Source: an uncultured Alphaproteobacteria bacterium (GTDB lineage: Bacteria; Pseudomonadota; Alphaproteobacteria; Caulobacterales; Hyphomonadaceae). From it: a stretch of 64,000 nt of DNA. The position numbers were made by a program, and so were the translations under genes. The stretch is taken from the NCBI GenBank assembly GCA_903831255.1, contig CAIKWZ010000013.1, positions 62,001 to 126,000 of the forward strand, in the 5' to 3' direction. Shown in pieces: positions 4,250-64,000 of this stretch (the stretch's first letter is position 1; each line of letters starts with the position of its first letter). A model generated the notes under the pieces. That model did not search any database. It was not told where the DNA came from and saw only the letters and a list, made by a program, of their open reading frames with translations.

Positions 4250-6100
4250 ATGCCGCCTGCCCCTCCGATCGCCGCCCTGCGCGAGGCCCGTCTCACGCTC
4301 GGGAGCGCACCTCTCTTCGTCGGCGTCGACATCTCCCTGTCGAGAGGACGCCGCATGGCGCTGGTCGGGCGTAACGGCGCAGGCAAGTCCACCCTGATGA
4401 GGCTTCTGGCGGGACAGATCGAAGCGGACGGCGGAGATGTGTTCCGTCAGCCCGGGGCCACCTCCTTCTATCTGCGGCAGGAGCCGGACTTCCGGGGCTT
4501 CGCCACCGCGCTGGAGTATGTCGCAGCCGGGCTCGAAGACGATCTGACTTACCGGGCGGACGCCGAACTTGACGAGTGGGAGGTTCCGCCAGGCCTCCCG
4601 CTTGCGACCGCCTCCGGCGGTCAGGCCCGCCGCATCGCTCTGGCGAGAGCGTTTGCGCTCAGCCCCGACCTGCTCCTGCTGGATGAGCCCACGAACCATC
4701 TCGATGTGGCCTCGATCGAACGCCTCGAGAAGGAACTTCTCGCCTTTCGCGGCGCCGCCCTCATCGTCAGCCACGACCGGCGCTTCCTTGAAACCGTCTC
4801 GACCGATGTCGCCTGGCTGCGACAGGGCGTGGTCCGGACCCTCGAGACCGGATATCGGAACTTCGAGGAGTGGGCCGAAACGGTCGAAGTCGAAGAGGAG
4901 CGTGCGCTCGAAAAGCTGAACGTTCAGCTGAAGGCCGAAGAGCGATGGCTTGCGCGAGGGGTGACAGCGCGCCGAAAACGGAACATGGGGCGGGTGCGCA
5001 AGCTTCAGGACATGCGCGCCGAACGCCGCGCACGCAAGACCGCCCTTGCTGACGCCGCATCGAGCGCCCAGCTGGCGGTTGAGAGCGGCGCCGCGTCGGG
5101 CCGACTGGTCGCCGAACTCAAGGGCGTCTCAAAATCCTTCTCCACGCCCGAAGGCGACATCGTTATCGCCTCCAATCTCGACCTCAGGATCATGAGGGGC
5201 GACAGGCTCGGCCTGATCGGGCCCAACGGCGCCGGCAAGACGACGCTCCTGCGCCTGATCCTCGGTCAGATGCCACCGGATCAGGGGACCGTCCGCCTCG
5301 CGAAGACGCTCGAGATCGCCTATCTCGACCAGACACGCGCGAGCCTCAGGGCGGACCAAACCCTCTGGGACACGCTCGCGCCGCTCGGCGGCGATCAGAT
5401 CATGGTGAGAGGCCATCCCCGCCATGTCGCCGCCTATGCGAAGGACTTCATGTTCGATTCAAGACAGCTGCGTCAGCCGGTCAGCGCCCTGTCCGGCGGC
5501 GAGCGCAATCGCCTGACCCTCGCCCTGGCCCTCGCCAGGCCCTCAAACCTCCTGGTGCTCGACGAACCGACCAACGATCTCGATATCGAAACCCTCGACC
5601 TGCTTGAGGACATGCTGACGGACTATGACGGAACCCTTCTGCTGGTCAGCCACGACCGGGCGTTTGTGGACAATGTCGCAACCTCGATCCTGACCCCCGA
5701 AGGCGAAGGCGGCTGGCTGGAGACCCCCGGCGGATACAGCGACTATCTCGCCCAGAACGGGCCGTCCTCGACCAGAACCTTCCGGTCCAGGACCCCGGAG
5801 CCTTCCAGATCGCCGCCTATCAGTCCTCCAGCGGCTCCCGCGGCCCCAACCCGACCCGGCGGCAAGCTGACCTACAAGGATGCGCGCCGCCTCGAAGAGC
5901 TGGTGCGCCTCATGAGCGAGAGACAGGCCGAGATCGCCTCCATCGAGACGGAAATGGCCGACCCCGCGCTGTTCGGACGAAATCCGGCCCGGTTCGCCCA
6001 GCTCGCCGCTCGCAGCGGCCCCGCCCGCGCCGAGCTGGAAGCCCATGAGCTCGAATGGCTCGAACTGGAGGAGAAGCGGGAGGCGCTTGCAAAGACCTGA
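4250..6100 (+). CDS. ABC-F family ATPase (Uup-like)
   Basis: A 616-residue soluble protein with two tandem ABC ATPase domains and no membrane segments. The first Walker A (GRNGAGKST, ~40-48) pairs with LLLDEPTNHLD; the second (GPNGAGKTT, ~325) pairs with signature LSGGERN and LVLDEPTNDLD. The inter-domain linker (~215-265) is charged and helical, as in ABC-F proteins, and the last ~90 residues form a predicted coiled coil (LEELVRLMSERQAEIASIETEM), as in Uup. ABC-F proteins act on ribosomes or nucleic acids; Uup is linked to ribosome assembly and tandem-repeat stability. The first signature is atypical (ATASGGQARR). AAAGG eight bases before ATG supports the start. Confidence 0.93.
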   Translation: MPPAPPIAALREARLTLGSAPLFVGVDISLSRGRRMALVGRNGAGKSTLMRLLAGQIEADGGDVFRQPGATSFYLRQEPDFRGFATALEYVAAGLEDDLTYRADAELDEWEVPPGLPLATASGGQARRIALARAFALSPDLLLLDEPTNHLDVASIERLEKELLAFRGAALIVSHDRRFLETVSTDVAWLRQGVVRTLETGYRNFEEWAETVEVEEERALEKLNVQLKAEERWLARGVTARRKRNMGRVRKLQDMRAERRARKTALADAASSAQLAVESGAASGRLVAELKGVSKSFSTPEGDIVIASNLDLRIMRGDRLGLIGPNGAGKTTLLRLILGQMPPDQGTVRLAKTLEIAYLDQTRASLRADQTLWDTLAPLGGDQIMVRGHPRHVAAYAKDFMFDSRQLRQPVSALSGGERNRLTLALALARPSNLLVLDEPTNDLDIETLDLLEDMLTDYDGTLLLVSHDRAFVDNVATSILTPEGEGGWLETPGGYSDYLAQNGPSSTRTFRSRTPEPSRSPPISPPAAPAAPTRPGGKLTYKDARRLEELVRLMSERQAEIASIETEMADPALFGRNPARFAQLAARSGPARAELEAHELEWLELEEKREALAKT

Positions 6101-6147
6101 GAGACCCGCGGCGCCCATCGAGGAGATTTTACAGTCTGCCGTAAGCG

Positions 6148-6159
6148 CCGGTTAACCGG
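6148..6159. promoter_or_regulatory. 12-bp perfect palindrome upstream of the DUF2336 gene
   Basis: CCGGTTAACCGG lies 42 bases upstream of the DUF2336 start codon, in the short gap after the ABC-F gene. It could be an operator for a dimeric regulator; there is no direct evidence of function. Confidence 0.35.
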
Positions 6160-6200
6160 GGTGCTGTAGACCCCCTCGGTAAGGGCTGGGGATTGGGTTC

Positions 6201-7301
6201 ATGGCCGCGGGCGCCTCGAATTTTGCAAAATTGCTCGAGCTTGCTCGAGAGACGTCGAGCGAGAAGCGGCGAGAGCTGCTTCGGCAGGTGACGGATGCCT
6301 TCATCACGCCGCGAGCGCCGCCGCGAGCCCATCTTGAAGCCGACCTGTTTGACGAATTCGTGACCACGATCGCCCATGACCTCGAAGAGGCGGTCCGGGT
6401 CGAACTCAGCGAAAAGATCGCCAGCGTCGATCTCCCGGTCAACCGGACGGCCCGCAGGCTGGCGATGGATTCGATCGCCGTCGCCCGTCCAATTCTAGAG
6501 AAGTCCAAGGCCCTCACGGAGCGGGATCTTCTGGAAGTCATCAACCGGAAGACCCAGGATCATATGATGGCGGTAACCCGCCGACCTGACATTGGGGTCA
6601 AGGTTTCCTCCGCCCTCGTCGAAAAGGGCGAGGATGCGGTTGTCGCCTCGCTTCTGTCCAACAATGACGCCCGGATCAGTCGAGAGACCTTCGAGAAGGT
6701 CGCTGAGAGGGCTGAAAACAGTCCTATCCTCCAGGCGCCGCTGGTGAAGAACAAGAACGTGCCGCTCGACGTCCTCAACTCGGTCTATCTCCAGGTGGAA
6801 GTGGGGCTCCGAGCCCATATCATGAAACGCTTCAACGGCGTCTCGCCGGCGGAGCTTGAGGCGGCTCTCGAAGTCGGACGCGCCCGCGTCGCCACCGCCT
6901 ACGGCGCGCTGCCGAATGATTACGCCTCCGCCGCCGACCAGATCCGGATCCTCGAAGGCTCGGGCCGCCTCAATGGCGAAACGCTGGTCCGGTTGATCTA
7001 CGAGCAGCGGCGCACCGCATTCACGATCGGACTGGCGCGCCTTGTCGGCACTCCCTTCGACCTCACTCATCGGATCATCTCGGGCAACGATCTGGACGCT
7101 CTGGCTATGCTCTGCCGAGGGGCCGGCTTTCCCCGCCCGATCTTCGTCACCATGTGCCTGGTGCTCGACAACAAGGGCTACAACGTCAAGCAGGCGGAAG
7201 AGCTCGGAGACCTCTACGAACTCGTGCCGGCGATCGCCGCGCAGCGCGCTCTCAAGTTCTGGAAGATCCGCATCAAGTCCGAAGCCGAGCAGGCGGCCTG
7301 A
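6201..7301 (+). CDS. DUF2336 domain-containing protein
   Basis: A 366-residue cytoplasmic, largely alpha-helical protein recognised as DUF2336, a family typical of Alphaproteobacteria. The helical repeats include RRLAMDSIAVARPILEKSKALTERDLLEVI and VSSALVEKGEDAVVASLLSNNDARISRETFEKVAERAE, which look like HEAT/Armadillo-type units with the LxNNxAxI-like motif seen across the family. The biochemical function is unknown; a protein-interaction role is inferred from the repeat architecture. It is convergent with prfC, 15 bases apart. A 12-bp palindrome lies 42 bases before the ATG. Confidence 0.9.
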   Translation: MAAGASNFAKLLELARETSSEKRRELLRQVTDAFITPRAPPRAHLEADLFDEFVTTIAHDLEEAVRVELSEKIASVDLPVNRTARRLAMDSIAVARPILEKSKALTERDLLEVINRKTQDHMMAVTRRPDIGVKVSSALVEKGEDAVVASLLSNNDARISRETFEKVAERAENSPILQAPLVKNKNVPLDVLNSVYLQVEVGLRAHIMKRFNGVSPAELEAALEVGRARVATAYGALPNDYASAADQIRILEGSGRLNGETLVRLIYEQRRTAFTIGLARLVGTPFDLTHRIISGNDLDALAMLCRGAGFPRPIFVTMCLVLDNKGYNVKQAEELGDLYELVPAIAAQRALKFWKIRIKSEAEQAA

Positions 7302-15412: not shown

Positions 15413-15535
15413 GATGCGCGCCCTTCACACCCGCTGACAGACAACCGGCCCAGACAAACCCAGGGCGACCGCCAGAGGTTTGATCCTGTTCAATCCGGGG
15501 GCCCTTCTGCTCGTCATAGCCATCTCAAATCCTCA

Positions 15536-52808: not shown

Positions 52809-52822
52809 TTGATCCCGATCAA
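52809..52822 (+). promoter_or_regulatory. FNR/FixK-type box (nrdJ-SDR operon)
   Basis: TTGATCCCGATCAA is a perfect TTGAT-N4-ATCAA site. Its centre is 83 bases before the nrdJ-like ATG; a class II promoter (site at -41.5) would place the transcript start ~42 bases before the gene. Confidence 0.8.
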
Positions 52823-52898
52823 CCCCGGGTCGCCCGATCAGGGGCTCCTCGCGAGGACGGCGTCAGGGTCCCTGCGCGGCGAACGAGGAGAGGGGTGG

Positions 52899-54677
52899 AT
52901 GAACGAGCGGGAGCTGTCATCCCTGATCTGGTCGCTGAAGTACCGGTTGCGCGGTGAACGGCGTATCGTCGACACCTTCAGACGGGTCGCCTCAGCGGCG
53001 GCTTCCGTAGAGGCGGATCGCCCGCGATGGACGGAAACGTATCTTTCCCTTCTTGAGAGCGGACAGTTCATTCCGGGCGGCCGGATCCTCGCCAATGCTG
53101 GAGACCGCGAGGGCGAGACCCTCTGCAACTGCTTTGTCTCGGGCGAAGTGTCGCCATCCCGTGACGCTCTTATGGACCACCTCAGAGACGTCGCCGCCAC
53201 CCTCGGGTCCGGAGGGGGCGTCGGCATCGATGCTTCGCCCCTGGGGCCAAAGGGAACGTCAGACGCACACGGTCGCCCGCATACAGATCCTCTGTCCTAC
53301 CTGCGCCTGCTGAATGCTGCGGCGGAGGCCTTTCCAGCAGAACGCCGCAGGCACGGGGCCCTCATGGCCTCCCTCTCATGCCGCCACCCGGACATCGAAT
53401 CCTTCGTGTCGGCCCAGGGACCTGACCTCAGCCATTTTGCCCTCTCGGTTCAGATCACGGACGAGTTTCTCAAGGCTGCAATCGATGACAGGCGCTGGCG
53501 TCTGCGTCACCCGGAGGGAGGCGGAGCATGGATGCGCGCCAGAGATCTCCTGACACAGATTGCATCATGCGCCCGACGGACCGGCGCACCCGGCCTCCTG
53601 TTTATCGACCGCATCAATGACGAGAATACACTCTGGTGGCGGGAGCGCCTCACGACCGCCAATCCATGTGGAGAAGCGCCCATGCCGGCTCATGGCGCCT
53701 GCACCCTTGGATCTCTGAACCTCTGCGCCTTCGTTCTTGATCCACTCGGCCCCGCGCCCCAGATCGACTGGCCTGGCCTTAAAAGCGCCAGCAGCCTCGC
53801 CATTCGGTTTCTCGACGCCATTCTCGATCTGACGTCCTTTCCTTTGGCTGCACAGCGTGACGAGGCTATCCGGACCCGACGGGTCGGACTTGGCGTCACA
53901 GGCCTAGGGGATGCTCTGGTTCTGCTCGGTGCGTCGTACTCGTCTTCCCATGCAAGACGTCTTGCGGAGGACATGCTGAGGGTGATCCGGAACTCCTCCT
54001 ACGAGGCGTCGGTCGATCTTGGCATGGAAAAGGGATCCTTTCCGGCGCTGGACCGGGAGAAGTTTCTTCAGGGACCCTTCACACGTCGGCTGCCGGAAAG
54101 CATTCGGCAATCCATAAGACGAGACGGACTGAGAAACGGACGACTTCTGGCCATTGCGCCTGCAGGGTCGATCAGTCTTCTCGCCGGCGGCGTCTCCAGC
54201 GGGATCGAACCAATCTTCGCATCCGTCACACGTCGTCATCTTCGTGATTCTCACGGAACTATTCACTCTATCGACATCCCCTCGGTGAGCCTGTCCAGGT
54301 GGCGTGAGCTTCGGGGAAACACGGTCCCGCCCCCGCCCTGCTTCGTGACCGCGGAGAACATAACGCCTGCGGAGCAGCTCGCCATGCAGGCGGCGATCCA
54401 GCCGTTTATCGACGGCGCAGTGTCAAAAACCATCAACCTGCCACAGTCGGCGACCGACGAGGATGTCGAAGGCCTGATCCTTGAAGCCTCCCGTCTTGAA
54501 ATCAAAGGCTGCGCGCTCTTCTCGCCCGATGCCTCGAACGAAAATGTTCTGGGGTCCGCCGAGCGCTCCAACTCCAAAAACACACTCGGGATCCAATCCG
54601 GGACAACCACCCCTGTTCACGATTGCTCCAGAAGACCGACCCGGCCTCGGGCGACATTCACAAGAAAAGGCAACTAG
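52899..54677 (+). CDS. Short class II (adenosylcobalamin-dependent) ribonucleotide reductase, NrdJ/NrdZ-like
   Basis: A 592-residue reductase that would make deoxyribonucleotides without oxygen using B12. The N-terminal GQFIPGGRILANAGDREGETLCNCFVSG contains the first redox Cys; LGSGGGVGIDASPLGPKG; the active-site NPCGEAPMPAHGACTLGSLNLCAF contains Asn, the thiyl-radical Cys and Glu plus the second redox Cys; RRVGLGVTGLGDAL and AIAPAGSISLLAGGVSSGIEPIFA follow. It is much shorter than the common ~1200-residue alphaproteobacterial NrdJ, and the C-terminal CxxC re-reduction tail expected of class II enzymes is not seen (one lone Cys). The ATG follows GAGGAGAGGGG. It is co-transcribed with the SDR gene. 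Confidence 0.88.
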   Translation: MNERELSSLIWSLKYRLRGERRIVDTFRRVASAAASVEADRPRWTETYLSLLESGQFIPGGRILANAGDREGETLCNCFVSGEVSPSRDALMDHLRDVAATLGSGGGVGIDASPLGPKGTSDAHGRPHTDPLSYLRLLNAAAEAFPAERRRHGALMASLSCRHPDIESFVSAQGPDLSHFALSVQITDEFLKAAIDDRRWRLRHPEGGGAWMRARDLLTQIASCARRTGAPGLLFIDRINDENTLWWRERLTTANPCGEAPMPAHGACTLGSLNLCAFVLDPLGPAPQIDWPGLKSASSLAIRFLDAILDLTSFPLAAQRDEAIRTRRVGLGVTGLGDALVLLGASYSSSHARRLAEDMLRVIRNSSYEASVDLGMEKGSFPALDREKFLQGPFTRRLPESIRQSIRRDGLRNGRLLAIAPAGSISLLAGGVSSGIEPIFASVTRRHLRDSHGTIHSIDIPSVSLSRWRELRGNTVPPPPCFVTAENITPAEQLAMQAAIQPFIDGAVSKTINLPQSATDEDVEGLILEASRLEIKGCALFSPDASNENVLGSAERSNSKNTLGIQSGTTTPVHDCSRRPTRPRATFTRKGN

Positions 54678-54678
54678 C

Positions 54679-55446
54679 ATGAAGCGACTGGCAGGAAAGC
54701 GCGCGGTCATCACCGGCGGGGCGGCGGGAATTGGAGAGGCATGCGCCCGACGCATGGCTCAGGAGGGCGCGAAGGTGGCCATTCTCGACATTCTCGATGT
54801 CGAGGGCCATCGCCTCGCTGCAGAACTGGTTACAGGAGGCGCCTCGGCCGTCTATCTGCCATGCGATGTTCGCTTCGAACAGCAGGTGGCTCAGGCGATG
54901 ACGGCTGCAGCAAAAGCGATGGGAGGACTCGACGTGCTGGTGAACAATGCCGGCATCTCCGGATCCAGACGCCCGACCCATGAACTCACCGAAGAGGAAT
55001 GGGACCTTGTTCAGGCGGTGAACGTCAAGGGCGTCTTCTTCTGCACGAAGCATGTGATTGCCCACATGAGAGCCGCTCAGGGGGGAAGTATCATCAATCT
55101 GTCGTCGATCTATGGACTGGTTGGCGCAGCCGATGTTCCCGCCTACCACGCGTCAAAGGGCGCCGTGCGACTGATGAGCAAGACGGACGCCCTGCTGTAT
55201 GCGAATGACGGAATTCGCGTGAACTCGATCCATCCCGGGTTCATCGAGACTGCGATGGTCCGCAAGTTTCTCAATGACCAGCCCGATCCGGAAGCGGCTC
55301 GCGCCGGGGTCAACGCGCTTCACCCTCTTGGTCGCATCGGAGTTACGGACGATATCGCCTGGGGCTGCGTCTATCTTGCCTCCGATGAGAGCAGCTTTGT
55401 CACCGGATCGGAACTTGTCATCGACGGCGGATACACCGCCCGGTGA
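54679..55446 (+). CDS. Short-chain dehydrogenase/reductase
   Basis: A 255-residue classical SDR. Cofactor motif TGGAAGIG, NNAG (LVNNAGISG), catalytic Ser in NLSSIYG, and YHASK (Tyr/Lys) are all intact. The acidic residue in AILDILDVEG after strand 2 favours NAD(H). The C-terminus (GSELVIDGGYTAR) is typical. The ATG lies one base after the nrdJ-like stop with AAAAGG upstream, so it belongs to the same FNR-box operon. The substrate is unknown; 3-hydroxy acids or secondary alcohols are typical of the family. A strong terminator follows. Confidence 0.92.
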   Translation: MKRLAGKRAVITGGAAGIGEACARRMAQEGAKVAILDILDVEGHRLAAELVTGGASAVYLPCDVRFEQQVAQAMTAAAKAMGGLDVLVNNAGISGSRRPTHELTEEEWDLVQAVNVKGVFFCTKHVIAHMRAAQGGSIINLSSIYGLVGAADVPAYHASKGAVRLMSKTDALLYANDGIRVNSIHPGFIETAMVRKFLNDQPDPEAARAGVNALHPLGRIGVTDDIAWGCVYLASDESSFVTGSELVIDGGYTAR

Positions 55447-55504
55447 CCGCGTCTCACTCCGCCGGGAGCTCCTATCCTTCAGAATATCTCCTGCACAATG
55501 CCAG

Positions 55505-55530
55505 AAAGACGCCCCGGGCGGGGCGTCTTT
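55505..55530 (+). terminator. Rho-independent terminator after the SDR gene
   Basis: AAAGACGCCCC-GGGC-GGGGCGTCTTT, with perfect 11-bp arms and a T-rich end (TTTCATTTATT). It ends the nrdJ-SDR operon. Confidence 0.88.
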
Positions 55531-55565
55531 CATTTATTCGGACGATCCTGACGGCTATGTTCGGA

Positions 55566-55880
55566 TCAACGACGCGTTGCGGTTCTGGTCCGCTGTCCGA
55601 GGACAAGCCCGATCACCGCGACAGCTGCAATCGCGAGAGCCGCCGTCGCCGCCGGATGAGTCCTCATCTGTCGGCCAGCTCCCTTCGCCGCTTTCACGCT
55701 TGTTTCTCGCGCCTGCCGAGCGAAGTCCGATGCGGCGTCGACCAGAGCAGCGCCGGACTTCGACATGGTGTCGCCGGCATCTTCTCCAATGTGTCGAGCC
55801 ATTTTGCTCAGGCTATGCACGACATCCTGATAGACGTCTCCCACGTCCTCGGCGACGCGTCTGGATACGTTGTTGACCAT
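55566..55880 (-). CDS. DUF883/ElaB-like small membrane-anchored protein
   Basis: A 104-residue protein with a long amphipathic helical region (VSRRVAEDVGDVYQDVVHSLSKMARHIGEDAGDTMSKSGAALVDAASDFARQARETSVKAAKGAGRQMR) and one C-terminal transmembrane helix (HPAATAALAIAAVAVIGLVLGQRTR). This is the architecture of ElaB/YqjD/DUF883 proteins, some of which tether ribosomes to the inner membrane in stationary phase. AGGAGGACACC before the ATG decides the start. An FNR-type box lies 54 bases upstream. Confidence 0.85.
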   Translation of the reverse strand: MVNNVSRRVAEDVGDVYQDVVHSLSKMARHIGEDAGDTMSKSGAALVDAASDFARQARETSVKAAKGAGRQMRTHPAATAALAIAAVAVIGLVLGQRTRTATRR

Positions 55881-55933
55881 GGTGTCCTCCTGTTCTGGAG
55901 TGTGCATTCGATCACGCGTGGACGGGGGCCGGC

Positions 55934-55947
55934 TTGACCACAATCAA
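55934..55947 (-). promoter_or_regulatory. FNR/FixK-type box (DUF883 gene)
   Basis: TTGACCACAATCAA, TTGA-N6-TCAA. Its centre is 60 bases upstream of the DUF883-like start, compatible with a class II activator position. Confidence 0.75.
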
Positions 55948-56076
55948 CAGGATCCGCATCTCGTCCCAACTCAGACACATTCCGTTTCCATCCCGAAAAA
56001 CTGCAGCTTCTTCTTCGACCACGTTGCGAGCGACATTCGATAAACTCGACATATGCATCACTGCGGAGAAAAACTG

Positions 56077-56913
56077 TCAGTGCGAGATGAAGACAGGAAA
56101 CTGAGGCTTCGCCAGGAGATCCCGACTGACGCCGCCAAGAACGATCTCCTGGATCCGGGGGGTTCCATAGACCCCCATCACAAGAAGATCGGACCCCGAC
56201 TTTCCCATCTCCAGACGCAGGACGTCTCCAGCGGATGCGTCAGTCAGATGGTTCTCAACGAACGTCATCTTCAACCCATGATTTTCAAAGAAGCTGTCCA
56301 GCCATGGATCGACCGACTTCCCCGGACCTGCTCCAACTCTGACAACCGTGATTGTCTCGGCCACCTGCAGAAGAGGCCATGCATCCCTGAGCGCGCGAGC
56401 TGACTCCCGCGTTCCCTTCCACGCCACCATGATCCTGCGACCGATCGCAGGCTCGTATCCGGCATCGGGCAGCAGGAGAACGGGTCCTCCCGACGACATG
56501 GCGATCTGAGCCGCCGAAACCCGATTCTGACCGAGGCTCGCCTGCACGGATACGGGAGAGATCACCAGATCGCACCGGCGCGCGCTGCCAATCACATCAT
56601 CGTCCAGATCGCCATCGACTACCCGCCAGTCAGCGATCGCCCCAACATCGCGGGCGGCCTGATCCAGATAACGGCGCGCCCTGTCCGCAGCCTCAGAAAC
56701 GGCGTCAGCATGGCGCTTCAGAAGATTATCAATATCAACCGGCGGCATGAAGGCCAGGGCCTCTCCCGCCCCATAAGTCCTCATAAGATCGGACCTCATG
56801 AACACCCCCGTCATCCGGGCGCCAAGCTTGTAGGCGATCGCCGCAGCGGCCCTCGCGCGAAGCTTAGCAGCGGAGGTGTCATCCATCAGCACCACAAGAC
56901 TCTTACAGACCAT
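56077..56913 (-). CDS. Universal stress protein with tandem Usp domains
   Basis: A 278-residue cytoplasmic protein with two Usp folds. The first (CKSLVVLMDDTSAAKLRARAAAAIAYKLGARMTGVFM) lacks a full ATP-binding motif; the second has IMVAWKGTRESARALRDAWPLL and ends with SDLLVMGVYGTPRIQEIVLGGVSRDLLAKPQFPVFISH, a variant of the G-2x-G-9x-G(S/T) ATP-binding motif. The ATG with GGGAGGG upstream is chosen over an earlier in-frame start. An FNR box lies 53 bases before it, so induction under low oxygen is likely. Confidence 0.92.
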   Translation of the reverse strand: MVCKSLVVLMDDTSAAKLRARAAAAIAYKLGARMTGVFMRSDLMRTYGAGEALAFMPPVDIDNLLKRHADAVSEAADRARRYLDQAARDVGAIADWRVVDGDLDDDVIGSARRCDLVISPVSVQASLGQNRVSAAQIAMSSGGPVLLLPDAGYEPAIGRRIMVAWKGTRESARALRDAWPLLQVAETITVVRVGAGPGKSVDPWLDSFFENHGLKMTFVENHLTDASAGDVLRLEMGKSGSDLLVMGVYGTPRIQEIVLGGVSRDLLAKPQFPVFISH

Positions 56914-56965
56914 CGCTCGCCCTCCCAATGAGAACAACATTTTGCGCGTTGGCTGCTCGTACCCG

Positions 56966-56979
56966 TTGACCGGGATCAA
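56966..56979 (-). promoter_or_regulatory. FNR/FixK-type box (universal stress protein)
   Basis: TTGACCGGGATCAA, centred 59 bases upstream of the usp ATG; the TSS expected for a class II site would lie ~18 bases before the start codon. Confidence 0.8.
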
Positions 56980-57008
56980 CTAGCGCGTGCGTCCCTCTGA
57001 ACACGAGA

Positions 57009-57037
57009 ACGCCCCGGAGCGGCGATCTCCGGGGCGT
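57009..57037 (-). terminator. Hairpin downstream of hsp20
   Basis: Arms ACGCCCCGGAG and CTCCGGGGCGT around a 7-base loop, 28 bases past the hsp20 stop on the minus strand, followed by TTCTCGTGTT. It is a candidate terminator separating hsp20 from usp, though the T-run is weak. Confidence 0.6.
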
Positions 57038-57064
57038 CCATTCAGTCCTGTGCTCGGGGCGGAG

Positions 57065-57535
57065 CTATTTGGCGGACTGAATCTCAATGGTCTTGGGCTC
57101 TGCGCCTGCATGCTTGGGCGCCGTGATACGAAGAACGCCGTCGGCCATCACCGCCTTGATCCTGCTAGGATCCACGCTTGGCGGGAGGCTCACTGATCGT
57201 TCAAAGGCGCCATAATTGCTTTCGATCACTCGCCGTTGCTGGTCCTTGGTCTCCTTTTCCAGCTTCTTTTCGCCGGAAATCGTCAGAGTATCCCCTTCTA
57301 TGGTTATCTGGATGTCCTTCTGAGTCAGTCCGGGCAGCTCAAAAGCATACTCAATCGCCGCCTTGGTCTCGCTCACGTCCATGCAGGGCGTCAGCCCTGA
57401 AAGGGCGCCCGAGTTCCACCCTCGCGACATCTGATCGAATATCCGATCAAGCTCGCGCTGCACCGGAGTGAAGACCCCCATCCCGGATCGCGGGAATGGG
57501 GCCAGGAAGCCCTCGCTTCCGCTGTGATTATTCAT
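57065..57535 (-). CDS. Hsp20/alpha-crystallin small heat shock protein
   Basis: A 156-residue ATP-independent holdase chaperone. The alpha-crystallin domain spans ~50-145: PCMDVSETKAAIEYAFELPGLTQKDIQITIEGDTLTISGEKKLEKE and YGAFERSVSLPPSVDPSRIKAVMADGVLRITAPK (the A-x-x-x-n-GVL motif). The N-terminal arm is short and Ser/Pro-rich; the last residues (TIEIQSAK) contain an I-x-I-like oligomerisation motif. AGGAG lies before the ATG. An FNR box is 70 bases upstream. Confidence 0.95.
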   Translation of the reverse strand: MNNHSGSEGFLAPFPRSGMGVFTPVQRELDRIFDQMSRGWNSGALSGLTPCMDVSETKAAIEYAFELPGLTQKDIQITIEGDTLTISGEKKLEKETKDQQRRVIESNYGAFERSVSLPPSVDPSRIKAVMADGVLRITAPKHAGAEPKTIEIQSAK

Positions 57536-57604
57536 ACTCCGCTCCTATCGATGATTACCGACCTCGCCAGAGCGTCAGAACATCATGAGGCGCGATCCTG
57601 AGCG

Positions 57605-57618
57605 TTGACGCGGGTCAA
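57605..57618 (-). promoter_or_regulatory. FNR/FixK-type box (hsp20)
   Basis: TTGACGCGGGTCAA in the gap between the P-type ATPase 3' end and hsp20, centred 76 bases upstream of the hsp20 ATG. Confidence 0.75.
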
Positions 57619-57625
57619 GCGCCCA

Positions 57626-60157
57626 TCATCCCATCGACTTTTTCGTCTGTCCCGTGAAACGCCTCCCGGCGAGAAGATCAAATCGCCTCCAGATTGCAAA
57701 CCAACCGCCCGCCGGCAGCGCGAGGGCCAGCGTGACCCAAGCGCCGGGACCCGAAGGCCAGTCCACTCGAAAGACCGAAGCGAGCGCGGGATGCAGGAAT
57801 ATCGCAACGGTCAGGACCGCGACAGCGCAGGCTATGATCCAGAAGACCATACGACCGGTGTGAAAGAGCGACTGAGAACGTCCAAAACTATCTGCGAACG
57901 CAAGCGCCAATGTCGCGGCGATGAGAGAGACGAAACCGACGCCCCGAGCCTCCGCATCTGAGGACATACCCAGCCACACACCATAGGAAACCAGGACAAA
58001 GACAAGAAGCACGACGCCCTGAACCAATGACAGGGCCAGCTGCGTCATTCCAAAGATTGATTCCCGAGGGTCTCGAGGGGGTTTTTCCATAGAGTCGGCT
58101 TCGCTCGGCTCCGATTCAAAAACCAGAGAACAAACCGGATCAATGACCAGTTCGAGAAGCACGACATGCATCGGATACATCAGAGGCGGCATTCCCAGAA
58201 CGATAGGAAGGAGCGCAAGTCCAGCAATCGGAAAATGGACGGCGGTGATGAACATCAGCGCCTTTCTCAGATTCATGAAGATCCGACGACCCAGACGAAT
58301 TCCGCCGACGATAGAAGGCAGGCCATCATCCAGCAGAATGATGTCCGACGCTTCGCGCGCGACATCAGACCCTCTGCGGCCCATGGCGATCCCTATGTCG
58401 GCCGCCTCGAGAGCAGGCGCGTCATTAACCCCGTCTCCAGTCATAGCGACGATTTCGCCTTCTGATCTGAAGGCTCTGACCAGGCGGAGCTTCTGCTCAG
58501 GAAGGACACGCGCAAAAATATGAACGGCTCTTATGCGATCTGCGAGCGCGTCGTCGGCCAGCCTCGAAATGTCCTGACCCGTCAGATATCCTCCGGACGT
58601 GTCGATGCCCGCTTGTCTCGCAATCTCCATAGCGGTTGGCGCGTAATCGCCCGTGATCATCACCACGTTTATCCCGGCACGCCTCGCCTCGGCGATCGCC
58701 TCGAGCGCGCCTGAGCGCAACGGATCGAGAAATCCTATCAGTCCGCGGAACTCAAATTGGGCAAGTCCCGGGTCTGCCTCCGGAAAATCGCCTCCACGCC
58801 AGCCCGCCACTCCAAGGACACGAAGACCGGACGCGGCGAGATTTTCCAGCGCAGTCACGGCCAGCGCGCGCTGCTGTCCCTTGAGCGCGCACAGGTCAAA
58901 GATTGCCTCAGGCGCCCCCTTTGCAGCCGCAGTGCGCTCTGTGGGCGCATCCCATAGCTGAATAACGGCCAGTCGCGAGGATGTCAGAGGCCATGTTCGG
59001 GTCGGCGATGACGGAGAGGCCTGTTCAACGCCTGAGGGCGCCGCGCTCATCACCGCCTGGTCGATCGGATCCGTTGTTCCCATACGCGAGGCAAGGGCCG
59101 CGATACGAAGCAACTCGCAATCGTCCGAGGCCCCTTCAGCCCTCAGTCTCTCGCGTCCTCGTTCAGGGGTCCACAGACTTTCGACCTCCATCCTGTTTTC
59201 GGTGAGTGTTCCAGTCTTGTCCACGCAAAGCACGCCCGCCCCCCCAAGCGTCTCGATCACAGCCGATCGCCGGACCAGTACCCGCCGCCTCGCCAGACGC
59301 CAGGCGCCCAGGGCCATGAAAACGGCCAGCACCATGGGAAATTCCTCGGGAACGAGAGCGACAGCTACGGTCACCCCCGCGAGTATTCCTCCAATCCAGT
59401 CATCACGGAGCCATCCGTAGGTGAGAGCGACGACGCCGCAGAACAGAATCGCCACGCCTCCGAGGAAGGCGATCAGGCCTGCGGACCGCTTCTGAAGAGG
59501 AGTGAGCTCGAAGGTGATCCCGCTCAGAGAGGAGCTCAGCCTGCCAAGAGCGGAGCGTGAACCTGTCGCTACCACTTCGGCCAGGCCGTGACCGCGAACG
59601 ACCAGCGTCCCTCCCAGAAGTCTATGTCTCTCTGGAATGCCGCCAGAGCCCTGCTCCGTTTCCGGCGCACGACTTTCTGGAAAACGATCGACAGGCGCGG
59701 ACTCCCCGGTCAGCACGCTCTCATCGACACCAAGCGTATCGCCGCGGCGAAGGCGGGCGTCTGCAGGAAGCCGCTCGCCCTCACCGACCAGAATGACGTC
59801 GCCGGCCACGAGCTCCACAGAGGGTATCTTCGTCTCCAGACCGTCTCTGAAAACCCGCACGGTTGGAGTCGCGAGGGTTCTCAGCGCTCTCAGAGCTCTC
59901 TCGCTTCGAACCTCCTGCACGATCACGAGCGCCACCGCGAGGCATGCCCCGGCAGTCAGAAACAGTCCCTCTCCGAGATCACCGATCGCAAGATAGATGG
60001 TTGCTGCAAGGAAGAGCAGCAGGAACATCGGCTCGCGAACCGATCTGAAGACAATCATCCGAAATGTTCGGGTCTCACGATCCGGCCATTCGTTTCGTCC
60101 GTCGGACAAGAGACGACGCTGCGCCTCCTCAGACGTCAGCCCAATCACCTCACCCAC
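57626..60157 (-). CDS. P-type cation-transporting ATPase (type II, CtpF/SERCA-like)
   Basis: An 843-residue membrane ATPase. Actuator motif LTGES (~149-153), TM4 ion-site PEEFP (~270-274), phosphorylation motif CVDKTGTLTE (Asp 313), nucleotide domain KGAPEAIF, and hinge MTGDGVNDAPALEAADIGIAMG; about ten helices with a C-terminal cation ATPase domain. There is no heavy-metal CPC or N-terminal HMA domain, so Ca2+, Mg2+, Na+ or K+ are likelier than Cu/Zn/Cd. The start is GTG. It follows the DUF2267 gene by 36 bases on the same strand, forming an operon whose only visible box is at 60732. Confidence 0.93.
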   Translation of the reverse strand: MGEVIGLTSEEAQRRLLSDGRNEWPDRETRTFRMIVFRSVREPMFLLLFLAATIYLAIGDLGEGLFLTAGACLAVALVIVQEVRSERALRALRTLATPTVRVFRDGLETKIPSVELVAGDVILVGEGERLPADARLRRGDTLGVDESVLTGESAPVDRFPESRAPETEQGSGGIPERHRLLGGTLVVRGHGLAEVVATGSRSALGRLSSSLSGITFELTPLQKRSAGLIAFLGGVAILFCGVVALTYGWLRDDWIGGILAGVTVAVALVPEEFPMVLAVFMALGAWRLARRRVLVRRSAVIETLGGAGVLCVDKTGTLTENRMEVESLWTPERGRERLRAEGASDDCELLRIAALASRMGTTDPIDQAVMSAAPSGVEQASPSSPTRTWPLTSSRLAVIQLWDAPTERTAAAKGAPEAIFDLCALKGQQRALAVTALENLAASGLRVLGVAGWRGGDFPEADPGLAQFEFRGLIGFLDPLRSGALEAIAEARRAGINVVMITGDYAPTAMEIARQAGIDTSGGYLTGQDISRLADDALADRIRAVHIFARVLPEQKLRLVRAFRSEGEIVAMTGDGVNDAPALEAADIGIAMGRRGSDVAREASDIILLDDGLPSIVGGIRLGRRIFMNLRKALMFITAVHFPIAGLALLPIVLGMPPLMYPMHVVLLELVIDPVCSLVFESEPSEADSMEKPPRDPRESIFGMTQLALSLVQGVVLLVFVLVSYGVWLGMSSDAEARGVGFVSLIAATLALAFADSFGRSQSLFHTGRMVFWIIACAVAVLTVAIFLHPALASVFRVDWPSGPGAWVTLALALPAGGWFAIWRRFDLLAGRRFTGQTKKSMG

Positions 60158-60193
60158 GAACTCGCCGCCTCCCGTTTGATCGACCAGGCCGGG

Positions 60194-60634
60194 CTACAGC
60201 GCCCATGTCCGTACTGGCCAGAACTCCCTCAGCGGCTTGGGAAGATGCTGGATGATTTTCCGGACCTCGCCAGGATCCAGGCGATCAGCCATAACTGTCA
60301 GAACGCTTGAAGCGATGTCATTGGCGTCTCTCTGGCAGGCGCCCATTGTCCGCGCGCGAATCTCCTGAAGAAATACTTCCGGGTCACGGCCGCCCCGTGA
60401 CGCCTCAAGCGGCTTCCATCCCTCCAGAAACACTCCCCTCAGAAGCATAGGCAACTGGGCGGAGAGACCGGCGACCTGATCGGCTGTCAGATGATCCCTG
60501 AGAACATGAAGGACGGCGCGCAAAGCCGAATAGGCCTGCTGTCGCGTCAGAGGCTGAAGATCATTCTCAATGGCTCGTAGCCACTCGTTTGTTTCCTGAA
60601 CGGTCGTGTCGAAAACCGCGAGACCTGTCGACAT
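60194..60634 (-). CDS. DUF2267 domain-containing protein
   Basis: A 146-residue cytoplasmic helical protein with the DUF2267 pattern: LRAIENDLQPLTRQQAYSALRAVLHVLRDHLTADQVAGLSAQLPMLLRGVFLEGWKP...VLTVMADRLDPGEVRKIIQHLPKPLREFWP. DUF2267 has a fold reminiscent of a DnaA/initiator-type helical domain, but function is unknown; family members often sit beside stress genes. AGAGGAGA precedes the ATG. It is the first gene of the pair with the P-type ATPase and lies divergent from the phasin-like gene. Confidence 0.9.
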   Translation of the reverse strand: MSTGLAVFDTTVQETNEWLRAIENDLQPLTRQQAYSALRAVLHVLRDHLTADQVAGLSAQLPMLLRGVFLEGWKPLEASRGGRDPEVFLQEIRARTMGACQRDANDIASSVLTVMADRLDPGEVRKIIQHLPKPLREFWPVRTWAL

Positions 60635-60731
60635 GGTTGTTCTCCTCTTTCAGCTCTCGATCGTGCCGGCCTGCTCAGCCCTGCGCCCAAGACGGCACAT
60701 GGCAGCTCTGTCAGAGGCATTCGATATTGTG

Positions 60732-60745
60732 TTGATCGGGATCAA
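60732..60745. promoter_or_regulatory. FNR/FixK-type box in divergent promoter
   Basis: TTGATCGGGATCAA, a perfect TTGAT-N4-ATCAA. It lies 68 bases before the phasin-like gene (+) and 98 bases before the DUF2267-ATPase operon (-), and could serve both. Confidence 0.8.
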
Positions 60746-60812
60746 CGTCCCGGCAGGGGCCATCGCCCAGATGTCGTCCTGCCAGCGTTCATGCAAGCTG
60801 AAGGAGGCCAAC

Positions 60813-61067
60813 ATGCCGAAAGACACTCCAAGCCACGCCAATCGCGCCAATGCGAATTCTGCGCTGAACGGACTCTGGTCCTCGCGATCCGACCCGCTTC
60901 AGATGTGGTCGCGTACGTGCGACCTCTACTCGCGATACTTTGCCGCTCTCTCTAGGGCGCAAAGTCCAGAAGGCCTGATGGCTGCAAACGCTGAATTTCT
61001 GGCCGCAGGAATGGAAGCTATCGGCAACGGCTCCGCTGCCGGCGAGGTCCGGGCGTCAGGTCCCTGA
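60813..61067 (+). CDS. Small phasin-like protein
   Basis: An 84-residue protein. The central helix SDPLQMWSRTCDLYSRYFAALSRAQSPEGLMAANAEFLAAGMEAI resembles the core of phasins, which coat polyhydroxyalkanoate granules, but it is shorter than usual (~110-150). The start is fixed by AAGGAGG five bases before the ATG. It is the first gene after the FNR box at 60732; the large unknown protein follows 66 bases later. The similarity is by pattern only. Confidence 0.72.
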   Translation: MPKDTPSHANRANANSALNGLWSSRSDPLQMWSRTCDLYSRYFAALSRAQSPEGLMAANAEFLAAGMEAIGNGSAAGEVRASGP

Positions 61068-61133
61068 CCTCGCTTAGCCGATCCTGCCCTCATCTGTCGC
61101 GTATGCTGCAGCCCCCCAGAGATCCGAGGCGTC

Positions 61134-62426
61134 ATGTCCACCATTTCCCGTCACAGCTCCCTTCGTCTCTCAACCGGATGGCGGAAAGAGTCTGGCTCAC
61201 GCGCGGCAACGAACAGCGATCTGTGTACGATTATGAAGTCTCTTCTTGAGACGCATGCGGACGACCAATCCGTCTTAGGCGCAAGACAGACCTCTCCCGA
61301 GGCGGAAAATCTGATGTCCTGCCTTGAGAATAAGTGTGAGGCGTCCGGCCTTCTCGGTCGGTCTGGGGGATCTATCGTCCAACTTCTGTCTCAACTGTCT
61401 CAGTCAGGCTCTGTCTATGCCGATCGCATCATTGAACGCAGGAATGAAGGCCGCCATGCTGCTCTCAGGATTGAAGATACGCCTTCGACTGGATTGCGGC
61501 TGATTTCTAATGAGACGCCGTCCTCCAGTGGGATTGCCCCTGACGTGTCTCTGCGGACGGGGGACAGGCTCTATGATCTGGCGCTGCTTTTGACCACCCT
61601 GCTTGAAGATGGCCAGAGATCGCATGCCAATATTGCGATGAACACCTATTTCGACGCCACGAGAGAGGCGGATCAGGATCTTGGAGTTCTTTCATTTTTT
61701 ATGGCGGCTCGCTCTCTTGACCGTGCGGCTGACGCCAATGCGTCCGGCGACACTCAGACGTCAGATGCTCGCATTCAGCTCGCACGATCCCTTATCGTGA
61801 AGAAAAAGCCTGCGGTCACAGCTATCTGTGTCGCATCGTCTCCACCGTCGTCTCTTATCGGTCTTCGCATCGCCTCGGAGCTCTCCGGTCCCTGCGGGGC
61901 CCGGCGTCTGAGCGCTGCGTCCATTCTCAACGAGCTTCGCCAGACGGTCTGGTCTGGCCCCCTTGCAAGCGCCGGCCAGGAGCCCGCCGGTCGGGCCACT
62001 GTCTACCGTCTCCTTGCTCAAAGGACCCTTTCCGCTGTCGCCGCGAACTGCTCTGTCGTCTGTGAGGCTCCCTTTGTTGAAGCGCCTGCAAGAAGCCTCA
62101 TTGAAGCCGCGGCGCGTGGCGGCCCCTTCGCAGGAGTATGGCTTGGCGGTCGTCCCGATCAGCACAACATGTCGCGTTCAGACAGCAACGGAGCGGGCGC
62201 GTCCCTGACCCCTCACCGCCCAGAGGCGCGATGTAATCAGGAGGCGCTGGATGGATGGCTTGAGCTCAATCATCTCACGGACGACGATGTTCCCAAGGCC
62301 ACCGGCGCTGTGCTCCGACATATCGAGACCCAGAGGCGGGCTTGGGAGAACACCCTGCCCCGCGGCGACTTGTCCTTGGCGGGGTCTCGCTCAGGCTGCG
62401 TGACGGTTCTTCCCTTCAAGTCGTGA
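61134..62426 (+). CDS. Degenerate relative of aminoglycoside phosphotransferase/AAA ATPase fusion (Rv2004c-like)
   Basis: A 430-residue open frame. RLYDLALLLTTLLEDGQRSHANIAMNTYFDATREADQDLGVLSFFMAARSLDRA matches the linker between the kinase and ATPase domains of Rv2004c-type proteins (YDLAFLLMDL, then LLPLFLAxRA). The following TAICVASSPPSSLIGLRIASEL occupies the P-loop position, where the family has a GxxGxGKST motif, so Walker A is lost. The kinase catalytic HGDL-type and Asp motifs before the linker are also absent. The gene is intact and expressed-looking (GAGG before ATG, in an FNR-box operon), with more T-rich codons (TCT, CTT) than its neighbours. Probably a pseudoenzyme; alternatively a decaying gene. 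Confidence 0.72.
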   Translation: MSTISRHSSLRLSTGWRKESGSRAATNSDLCTIMKSLLETHADDQSVLGARQTSPEAENLMSCLENKCEASGLLGRSGGSIVQLLSQLSQSGSVYADRIIERRNEGRHAALRIEDTPSTGLRLISNETPSSSGIAPDVSLRTGDRLYDLALLLTTLLEDGQRSHANIAMNTYFDATREADQDLGVLSFFMAARSLDRAADANASGDTQTSDARIQLARSLIVKKKPAVTAICVASSPPSSLIGLRIASELSGPCGARRLSAASILNELRQTVWSGPLASAGQEPAGRATVYRLLAQRTLSAVAANCSVVCEAPFVEAPARSLIEAAARGGPFAGVWLGGRPDQHNMSRSDSNGAGASLTPHRPEARCNQEALDGWLELNHLTDDDVPKATGAVLRHIETQRRAWENTLPRGDLSLAGSRSGCVTVLPFKS

Positions 62427-62464
62427 GCCTCCGGCGAGCGCTTCTGGAGTCTCCTGAATAATCT

Positions 62465-62481
62465 CCAGGCAGTCTGCCTGG
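62465..62481 (+). terminator. Small hairpin after the degenerate kinase/ATPase gene
   Basis: CCAGGCA-GTC-TGCCTGG followed by TTTGG, 39 bases past the stop codon. A short stem, so only a possible terminator. The rest of 62427-62666 shows no gene. Confidence 0.45.
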
Positions 62482-62666
62482 TTTGGCTTCGCTCTTCTGG
62501 CTCGCACCTCCTGTCCGAAAAGGCAGCATGTACAGGTCCATGTAATCGTCGGTTGACGCCTTGAGGTCCAGCCGCTTTGAACCCGATCGCCTGCTTGTTA
62601 GCGAGCCATGCGTTCATCAGTTCGTCTCGTAATCAGTCCTGATGATCGGGCTGACCCCTCTTCCTC

Positions 62667-63275
62667 CTAGATTGCAGATGCGTCCAGCGCGTGGCTTGTA
62701 TTGACCGCCGGGGAACTGTCGAAGGCAGAGACCTTCACCTGAGCTCCGGCCAGACGCAGGTAAAGACGCCTGCGAGCGAGCAATGGCCACCAGTCATAGA
62801 GAAAGATCTCCATCGGCCTCCAGTTCGCCACCCAACCGAGAATAAGCGCGCCTTCCGAAATAATGCCGGAAAACGGCTCAGCTCCAGGCAGCAAGGACAG
62901 GGTGCGCCCTCCCAGTAAGCAGCCGCCGAGGACCAGAAGACCGATCAGAAGCGAGAGACGCCCTCTGCGAAACATCTCGGCCACGTCGCCCGACAGGGTT
63001 CTTGCCTTCTGTAAAAAGTGATTGGACAGCGCCAGACGAAGCTCCTCGACATGCTCAGGCCGAAGCTCGCTGGAAGGACCGTGAAAGAGGATGTGAATCG
63101 GCGCAGACAGAGGGAACTCGCGCGCCCATCCGACAATAAAGTCCTCAGCACTTCTGGAGAGATCCCTGAAGGGGACAGGAAAGGGGTCGAAGGGGTCGAA
63201 TAGCAACGTCAGACGCTCAAGTCGCAGCTCGATCACACAGGGCGAACCGTCGCGCGACAGACCAGTTTCCTTCAT
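62667..63275 (-). CDS. Membrane protein of unknown function in the FNR-box island
   Basis: A 202-residue protein. The N-terminal half is soluble (IELRLERLTLLFDPFDPFPVPFRDLSRSAEDFIVGWAREFPLSAPIHILFHGP), then an amphipathic segment, two transmembrane helices (LSLLIGLLVLGGCLLGG and SGIISEGALILGWVANWRPMEIFLY) and a C-terminal DWWPLLARRRLYLRLAGAQVKVSAFD tail. I do not recognise a named family. An FNR-type box lies 58 bases upstream, shared with the divergent acyl-CoA synthetase. Confidence 0.78.
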   Translation of the reverse strand: MKETGLSRDGSPCVIELRLERLTLLFDPFDPFPVPFRDLSRSAEDFIVGWAREFPLSAPIHILFHGPSSELRPEHVEELRLALSNHFLQKARTLSGDVAEMFRRGRLSLLIGLLVLGGCLLGGRTLSLLPGAEPFSGIISEGALILGWVANWRPMEIFLYDWWPLLARRRLYLRLAGAQVKVSAFDSSPAVNTSHALDASAI

Positions 63276-63332
63276 CGCCCCACCATCCGATGCACGCCGT
63301 TACCTTGGAATGGGAACAGGGCCTTTCTCATC

Positions 63333-63346
63333 TTGATCAGGGTCAA
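63333..63346. promoter_or_regulatory. FNR/FixK-type box in divergent promoter
   Basis: TTGATCAGGGTCAA centred between the membrane-protein gene (start 63275, minus) and the acyl-CoA synthetase gene (start 63403, plus), ~64 bases from each start. The symmetric placement suggests a bidirectional class II promoter. Confidence 0.8.
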
Positions 63347-63402: not shown

Positions 63403-64000
63403 ATGACAACGCAAAATCTGCAGGCGCTCTTCGATCCTGTCTCAGTGGCCCTGGTCGGCGCCAGCGGCAGGGAAGGATCGGTAGGCGCCATTCTCGCCCG
63501 AAATCTGCTTTCAGGCGGGTTCAGGGGGATCGTTCATCTCATAAACCCAAATGCGCAGACGATAGAGGGCCGTCCCTGTCTGTCCTCAGTATCGGCGCTC
63601 CCCGGTCCGATTGATCTGGCGGTTGTGGCGACGCCTGCACCTGGCTTACCTCAGCTGATTGAGCAATTGGCCTCGCGGGGCTGTCGTTGTGCAATTGTGA
63701 TCTCGGCTGGCCTCGAACCTGAAGCGGCCGACGCCATGGTGTCTTCTGCTCAGACTTCAGGTCTTCGCATTCTTGGACCCAACTGTCTCGGCATGCTGTC
63801 TCCAGGCATTGGTCTCAATCTGAGCTTCAGTCACACTTCGCCTAAGCCGGGGTCGATCGCATTTCTCACCCAATCAGGAGCCATCGCAACGTCAATGATC
63901 GACTGGGCGCGCTCGAAGGACGTGGGCTTCTCCCGTATCGTGTCCCTTGGAGACATGCGCGATATCGACTTCGGCGATCTTCTCGACCATCTGGACGAAG
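63403..64000 (+). CDS. ADP-forming acyl/acetyl-CoA synthetase family protein (3' partial)
   Basis: The first 199 residues of a CoA-binding/succinyl-CoA synthetase-like protein, cut by the window end. FDPVSVALVGASGREGSVGAILARNLLSGGFRGIVHLINPNA is the CoA-binding Rossmann domain; ISAGLEPEAADAM...LRILGPNCLGMLSPGIGLNLSFSH leads into AFLTQSGAIATSMIDWARSKDVGFSRIVSLGDMRDIDFGDLLDHL, the family's second domain. Such proteins are ADP-forming acetate-CoA ligases or Pat-type acetyltransferases; the distinguishing C-terminus is missing. AGGAG precedes the ATG. It is driven by the box at 63333. Confidence 0.9.
   Translation, partial: MTTQNLQALFDPVSVALVGASGREGSVGAILARNLLSGGFRGIVHLINPNAQTIEGRPCLSSVSALPGPIDLAVVATPAPGLPQLIEQLASRGCRCAIVISAGLEPEAADAMVSSAQTSGLRILGPNCLGMLSPGIGLNLSFSHTSPKPGSIAFLTQSGAIATSMIDWARSKDVGFSRIVSLGDMRDIDFGDLLDHLDE

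Follow-up and report, generated by a model that had tools for sequence, protein, structure and literature searches.

We analysed a 64,000-nucleotide (nt) stretch of DNA (the window) from an uncultured alphaproteobacterium of the family Hyphomonadaceae, corresponding to G000:C13:62001-126000 in an assembly listed as 99.99% complete. Close to the end of the window lies an island of genes preceded by palindromic FixK/FNR-type boxes, TTGA-N6-TCAA. These boxes are probably operators of FixK, the last component of an oxygen cascade made up of a hybrid FixL-type kinase, an OmpR-type response regulator and FixK, which would drive the survival island together with cytochrome bd. We infer low oxygen to be the signal. 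FixK regulons are already known, and the new element is the pairing of this sensor circuit with a survival-island output.

In the proposed mechanism, falling oxygen would free the hybrid kinase, a FixL-type protein with a putative haem-binding PAS domain, to phosphorylate the OmpR-type regulator, which would bind a direct repeat close to GTCACA-N4-GTCACA and activate fixK. FixK dimers would then bind TTGAY-N4-RTCAA at class II promoters and activate transcription from approximately -41.5; with boxes 59-84 nt before most starts, the leaders would be roughly 18-42 nt long. About a dozen island genes would be switched on if adjacent genes on the same strand form operons. The predicted targets are a B12-dependent ribonucleotide reductase (RNR) with a short-chain dehydrogenase (SDR), a universal stress protein (Usp), Hsp20, a DUF2267 protein with a cation ATPase, an acyl-CoA synthetase, a BON-domain protein and several proteins without a known family. 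Cytochrome bd and probably the sensor gene would be further targets of FixK, and the output would be survival of oxygen shortage, not cbb3 respiration.

Number and position of the boxes

Six boxes at 52809, 55934, 56966, 57605, 60732 and 63333 had been reported in the original prediction, and a motif scan found every one of them. They are intergenic and lie at promoter distance as described, with 59.5-83.5 nt between the box centre and the start codon of one flanking gene each. The distances, computed by hand from box and gene coordinates, were 83.5 nt for nrdJ, 60.5 for the DUF883-like gene, 59.5 for usp, 76.5 for hsp20, 74.5 for the phasin-like gene, 63.5 for the acyl-CoA synthetase gene, 64.5 for the membrane protein gene and 104.5 for the DUF2267 gene. 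The cluster of six turned out to be part of a larger one: two further boxes lie beyond the window end (G000:C13:129384 and G000:C13:137548, equivalent to 67384 and 75548 in the window frame), so that the island holds eight boxes in 22.7 kb.

A genome-wide scan with background statistics, which the original prediction had called for, found 43 palindromes in the 3.32-Mb genome (76 contigs) vs. 12 matches to a reversed control pattern, and the density in the island was far above that of the rest. At the density given by the other 35 sites, 0.24 boxes would be expected in the island; the probability of eight or more is 2e-10, or ∼3e-7 once corrected for the whole-genome search. The window contains seven copies in total, and 100 dinucleotide shuffles of it averaged 0.37 copies, never with more than 3. 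The stricter form TTGAY-N4-RTCAA fits 8/8 island boxes and 9/35 of the others (Fisher p 2e-4). The positions of 42 of the 43 genome sites relative to predicted genes were determined (the other one, C59:7786, lay outside the fetched stretches), and a good part of these 42 fell inside predicted coding frames. Inspection by eye revealed no clear shared -10 element downstream of the boxes.

The seventh copy in the window, at 15480..15493, corrects the claim that no other copy was present. It stands alone, 74 nt before an open reading frame (ORF) for an oxidoreductase, presumably of the GMC type. This site does not fit TTGAY-N4-RTCAA, and no aligned counterpart was found among the stretches fetched from the same-genus genome G039. 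Its membership in the regulon is doubtful and was not supported.

Conservation of the boxes in related genomes

Conservation was assessed in G039, whose contig was picked through its Hsp20 and not through its boxes. The island is ∼80% identical at the DNA level in this genome and could be aligned over window-frame positions 44002-76316 except for a 0.5-kb gap near 62.4 kb. All eight island boxes were found at orthologous places. The fixed box bases were kept in 64/64 cases, compared with 40/48 spacer bases and 1165/1574 (74%) flanking bases; the chance of keeping 64/64 at 74% is 4e-9. This conservation bears directly on the explanation that the motif clusters by chance, through base composition or repeats. 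Such an origin would be in line with the 35 other palindromes in the genome and with the sites inside coding frames; against it stand the shuffles (0.37 per window) and the reversed control, which occurs 12 times per genome and 0 times in 20 related stretches holding 48 boxes (these stretches were picked for a fixK or hsp20 relative). Since all 64 fixed bases are conserved in G039, the chance explanation is refuted, and we assign it a practically negligible probability. A genome-wide count of counterparts in G039 (23/42 sites) is biased, as most G039 stretches were fetched for having boxes, and was not used as evidence.

Boxes also precede relatives of individual island genes in other same-genus genomes, at distances of 46-72 nt. 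For usp, such relatives occur in G004, G014, G048 and G057, each with a box 46-58 nt before the aligned start. In G014, boxes lie 54 nt upstream of an SDR relative (70% identical) and 72 nt upstream of an acyl-CoA synthetase relative (48%), and in G004 a 45% identical relative of the DUF883-like protein is encoded 61 nt downstream of a box. Relatives of the DUF2267 and class II RNR genes in other genera also have boxes, though not in every case; the DUF2267 comparison used limits of 600 and 500 nt upstream. A box was present 61-442 nt upstream of the DUF2267 gene in 8/8 close relatives (E <= 4e-22, own genome and G039 included) and in 0/8 distant ones. For class II RNR, a box was found within 600 nt in 8/14 fetched loci (16 matches; one row, L166, is offset, as its contig starts early), compared with 0/16 fetched class Ia loci, the RNR class being taken from the score gap and not from a domain scan. 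Outside the own pair (this genome and G039), six of the 12 class II genes carried a box, in all six near -140 from the aligned start.

The island is not a family-wide feature: when 80 further genomes of the family were drawn, a close Hsp20 orthologue turned up in G039 alone (86%; the next match was 43%). The fixK gene is more widely spread, with a close orthologue in 12/15 same-genus genomes (own included) and in one genome of another genus. Several relatives carry smaller and different box clusters around fixK instead. In G014 (C50:11700-31600), nine boxes occur in 13 kb around fixK, together with relatives of the SDR, acyl-CoA synthetase and usp genes, as an island of different composition with the regulator at its centre.

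FixK and the neighbouring sensor genes

Searches of the assembly with PF00325 and PF13545 (PF00027 was not used) found one Crp/Fnr-family protein, which is FixK-like and is encoded at G000:C75:6924-7628. The translations of two other PF13545 matches looked ArsR-like and Lrp/AsnC-like by eye. The responsible regulator had been predicted to lie outside the window, which agrees with this location; the suggestion to look just beyond 64 kb does not, and a regulator inside the island was rejected for the same reason. With one Crp/Fnr regulator found in the assembly, every box should depend on one gene, which is an unusually clean prediction. FixK matches FNR-type and FixK2 chains, among others, in the Protein Data Bank (PDB; best E 4e-21), and its helix LETVSRK aligns with theirs; we take the E..SR pattern in this helix to read TTGA.

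An Fe-S-containing FNR/FnrN protein that senses oxygen directly would read the same box sequence, and FnrN is described as common among Alphaproteobacteria, in orders outside the Caulobacterales (PMC4999443). However, in the sole Crp/Fnr protein found, as in each of the 13 aligned orthologues, residues 1 to 40 include just one cysteine, at position 2, and the N-terminal FNR Fe-S cysteine cluster was not found in any of these 13 sequences. Direct sensing by such a protein is therefore very unlikely.

The preferred reading, in which FixK reads the boxes and receives the oxygen signal from a separate sensor, is consistent with the genes next to fixK on C75. They encode an OmpR-type response regulator (6022-6819) and a PAS-kinase-receiver hybrid (∼4368-6014) with PAS, HisKA and HATPase domains and a C-terminal receiver. 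The best PDB matches of the kinase PAS domain were FixL (E 9e-27), with a histidine and two arginines aligned that we take to be the haem- and oxygen-binding residues of FixL. Over 499 residues the kinase shares 46% identity with a Rhizobium etli p42f kinase encoded after a Crp/Fnr-type gene (which we take to be fixKf) beside cbb3 genes. The response regulator consists of a receiver and a Trans_reg_C domain and is 42% identical to R. etli p42f RHE_RS29195, a response regulator that may be FxkR. No NarL/FixJ-type response regulator was found beside the kinase, the neighbour being OmpR-type; FixJ was not looked for elsewhere in the genome. Depending on which start is taken, the kinase gene has a box ∼68-80 nt upstream, and one occurs at the same place in G039, suggesting feedback of FixK on the sensor gene. 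Among the matches listed for the response regulator in a search covering up to 5000 plasmid records, the top one (Terrarubrum flagellatum) is encoded between a PAS kinase gene and a fixK-like helix-turn-helix gene, arranged as here, with the cbb3 genes ccoNO adjacent. This plasmid gene set, from a member of the Hyphomicrobiales outside the Rhizobiaceae, also has a K-box-like repeat, at -104.

Rhizobial FxkR is reported to bind GTTACA-N4-GTTACA, the K-box (PMC7888657), which in R. etli occurs at -101 of the p42f gene. In the present genome, fixK has GTCACACTTTGTCACG at -109 and, after it, another copy of the repeat that fits less closely, and a K-box-like direct repeat is located at -86 to -109 of fixK in 13/13 orthologues. 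The conserved position of the repeat is sturdier evidence than its sequence match.

Boxes also precede genes elsewhere in the genome. One lies 82 nt upstream of cydA (cytochrome bd), a classical low-oxygen target; another precedes a dodecin gene. A box is also found ∼96 nt before a gene with an F0F1-ATPase gene-1 (AtpI-like) domain (G000:C33:97284), and the same was seen in G039, a hint that the ATP synthase operon, too, is controlled by FixK. A cbb3 oxidase as the main target was rejected: one haem-copper oxidase COX1 gene was found in the genome, the CtaD model fitted it best (626 bits with a partial query; cut-off 671), and no cbb3 oxidase gene was found in the genome with a Pfam model that does detect a CcoN (388 bits). 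The products expected from the boxed genes fit oxygen shortage, namely an oxygen-independent RNR, the bd oxidase, chaperone and stress proteins and an NDP-forming acyl-CoA synthetase.

An alternative is that a FixK-type protein reads the boxes but that the signal is something other than oxygen sensed through the neighbouring kinase, such as redox state, nitric oxide or stationary phase; the low-oxygen label would then be wrong or incomplete. Several island genes are general stress genes, and FNR, FixK and DNR targets are described as inseparable by box sequence alone (PMC2908626). On the other side, a kinase with a FixL-type PAS adjoins fixK and keeps the haem histidine and the two arginines, a box stands before cydA, and a class II RNR is among the targets. 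We consider a non-oxygen signal unlikely.

Several results weigh against a FixK-controlled island under a FixL-type sensor. The best NCBIfam model for FixK was Caulobacter FixK, at 115 bits vs. a cut-off of 300, and the hybrid kinase scored 181 bits vs. a cut-off of 850 for the rhizobial FixL model. The exact K-box had 2-4 mismatches in all 13 orthologues, none being exact, and in 4/13 orthologues at least 56/300 shuffles matched equally well. The looser pattern GTYACA-N4-GTYACA gave 0-2 mismatches in the 13, but it was written after viewing the sequences, and its shuffle counts make the match look better than it is. Boxes were also patchy among relatives: they were found within 500 nt of 8/23 Hsp20 loci and, once this genome and G039 are set aside, were missing from 6/12 class II RNR genes. 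Finally, 8/20 fixK or hsp20 neighbourhoods were box-free, including that of G007, which has the same kinase-regulator-fixK order.

On balance, the coordinated FNR/FixK regulon of the original prediction was supported by boxes that are non-random, intergenic, at promoter distance and fully kept in G039, by the single Crp/Fnr candidate and by the cydA box.

Immediately after fixK come two genes for selenocysteine insertion, identified by eye as selA and selB. On C75, the DNA from the last part of fixK through most of selA is 95-100% identical to that of G039, with flanks at 72-92%, which may be a sign that this block was recently exchanged.

Related systems and gene content of the island

The circuit most resembles hFixL-FxkR-FixK of R. 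leguminosarum and R. etli. Both have a hybrid kinase with a FixL-type PAS, an OmpR-type regulator, anaeroboxes, a FixK without N-terminal Fe-S cysteines and a K-box-like direct repeat before fixK. The two differ in the half-site, which here is closer to GTCACA than to GTTACA, in the cbb3 oxidase, which was not found here, and in FixK, which shares only 32% identity with the R. etli p42f protein. The hFixL-FxkR cascade has been described as originating in the Rhizobiaceae (PMC4999443), whereas, to judge from the present genome and the Terrarubrum plasmid, circuits of this kind also exist outside this family. It is a tentative proposal, to which we give slightly less than an even chance, that an alphaproteobacterial genus uses a full hFixL-FxkR-FixK circuit mainly for anoxic survival instead of high-affinity cbb3 respiration. 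If true, the cascade would not be confined to the Rhizobiaceae, and a system described from rhizobia would be extended to a genome with a different output.

Judged by gene content, no described locus comes closer to the island than lxa of Burkholderia cenocepacia, which also clusters Usp, a heat-shock protein and a BON-domain protein. The lxa locus is reported to be activated by low oxygen and required for anoxic persistence; its proposed regulator BCAM0049 belongs to the Crp/Fnr family, and the B. dolosa homologue, called FixK, is under FixLJ (PMC6127331). Unlike the present island, lxa is betaproteobacterial, comprises ∼50 genes with six Usp, and has FixLJ as partner instead of a hybrid FixL with an OmpR-type regulator.

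The FixK/FNR regulons of Caulobacter, Bradyrhizobium and Sphingopyxis use the same box as here. Predicted core regulons include Hsp20 for FixK and UspA for FNR (PMC2908626), and Usp and Hsp20 were reported to be induced by microoxia in Bradyrhizobium (PMC6515984). The Fnr box of Sphingopyxis granuli is given as TTGAY-N4-RTCAA, with the nrdZ and uspA boxes at -41.5 (PMC7713065). The reconstructed FixK regulon of Caulobacterales is described as limited to redox processes (PMC4999443), whereas most boxed island genes of known family here are stress or survival genes. Among titles and opening parts of abstracts, with few subscription journals covered, we found no description of such a FixK survival island nor, in the literature on FxkR and the K-box, of the present circuit.

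The DosR regulon of Mycobacterium tuberculosis presumably also brings together a class II RNR, Hsp20, Usp, a cation ATPase and a kinase-like protein; we take its regulator and DNA site to be unrelated to those of FixK, so that the likeness is in gene content only. If the present reading is true, a gene set of the class II RNR/Hsp20/Usp/cation ATPase type came under oxygen control via unrelated regulators at least twice, through the Crp/Fnr-family FixK (here and in Burkholderia lxa) and, presumably, through DosR in mycobacteria. A stress-survival island with several proteins of no assigned family would be tied to a defined oxygen-sensing circuit, and this predicts when the genes act.

The first of the island boxes within the window is box 1 (52809..52822), whose 14/14 bases are identical in G039. 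It is followed on the plus strand by the gene for the class II (B12-dependent) RNR of the NrdJ/NrdZ type (52899..54677; Pfam PF02867, E 8e-85; TIGR02504, 407 bits, above cut-off) and by the adjoining SDR gene (54676..55446, plus strand), possibly in one operon. Boxes 2 to 6 were all found by the motif scan and are conserved in G039. Box 2 (55934..55947) precedes a minus-strand gene for a short protein (55566..55880), box 3 (56966..56979) precedes usp (56077..56913, minus strand; PF00582), and box 4 (57605..57618) precedes hsp20 (57065..57535, minus strand; PF00011), for a small heat-shock protein. Box 5 (60732..60745) separates two divergent genes, those of the DUF2267 protein (60194..60634, minus strand; PF10025) and of an 84-residue protein (60813..61067, plus strand). 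The P-type cation ATPase gene (57626..60157, minus strand; PF00122 and PF00689) lies downstream of the DUF2267 gene and likely forms one operon with it. The short protein at 55566 and the 84-residue protein had been called DUF883 and phasin; these labels were given by eye only and gained no support from Pfam or NCBIfam.

Box 6 (63333..63346) lies between the divergent genes at 63275 and 63403. The former (62667..63275, minus strand) encodes the protein first read as a membrane protein; it has no assigned family and no Pfam match was found. Its 50% identical relative in G004 lies close to a usp gene, and the nearest box precedes this usp and not the relative itself. The latter encodes the NDP-forming acyl-CoA synthetase (63403..64000, plus strand, continuing to window-frame 66045; PF13607, PF13380 and PF13549). 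A long open frame follows the box at C13:129384. Beyond the window the island includes genes for DUF4010/MgtC, an FMN-dependent dehydrogenase and FtsH. A protein with three BON domains is encoded directly after the last box, and the second of the two universal stress genes of the island is found further out, past that box.

A divergent 430-residue ORF (61134..62426, plus strand) has no box of its own and is weakly similar to bifunctional aminoglycoside phosphotransferase/ATP-binding proteins. It had no Pfam match but matched 25 plasmid records; among the ten matches listed, identity was 26-33% and the best E value 1e-10. The ORF has strongly diverged from these phosphotransferase/ATP-binding proteins and is possibly decaying.

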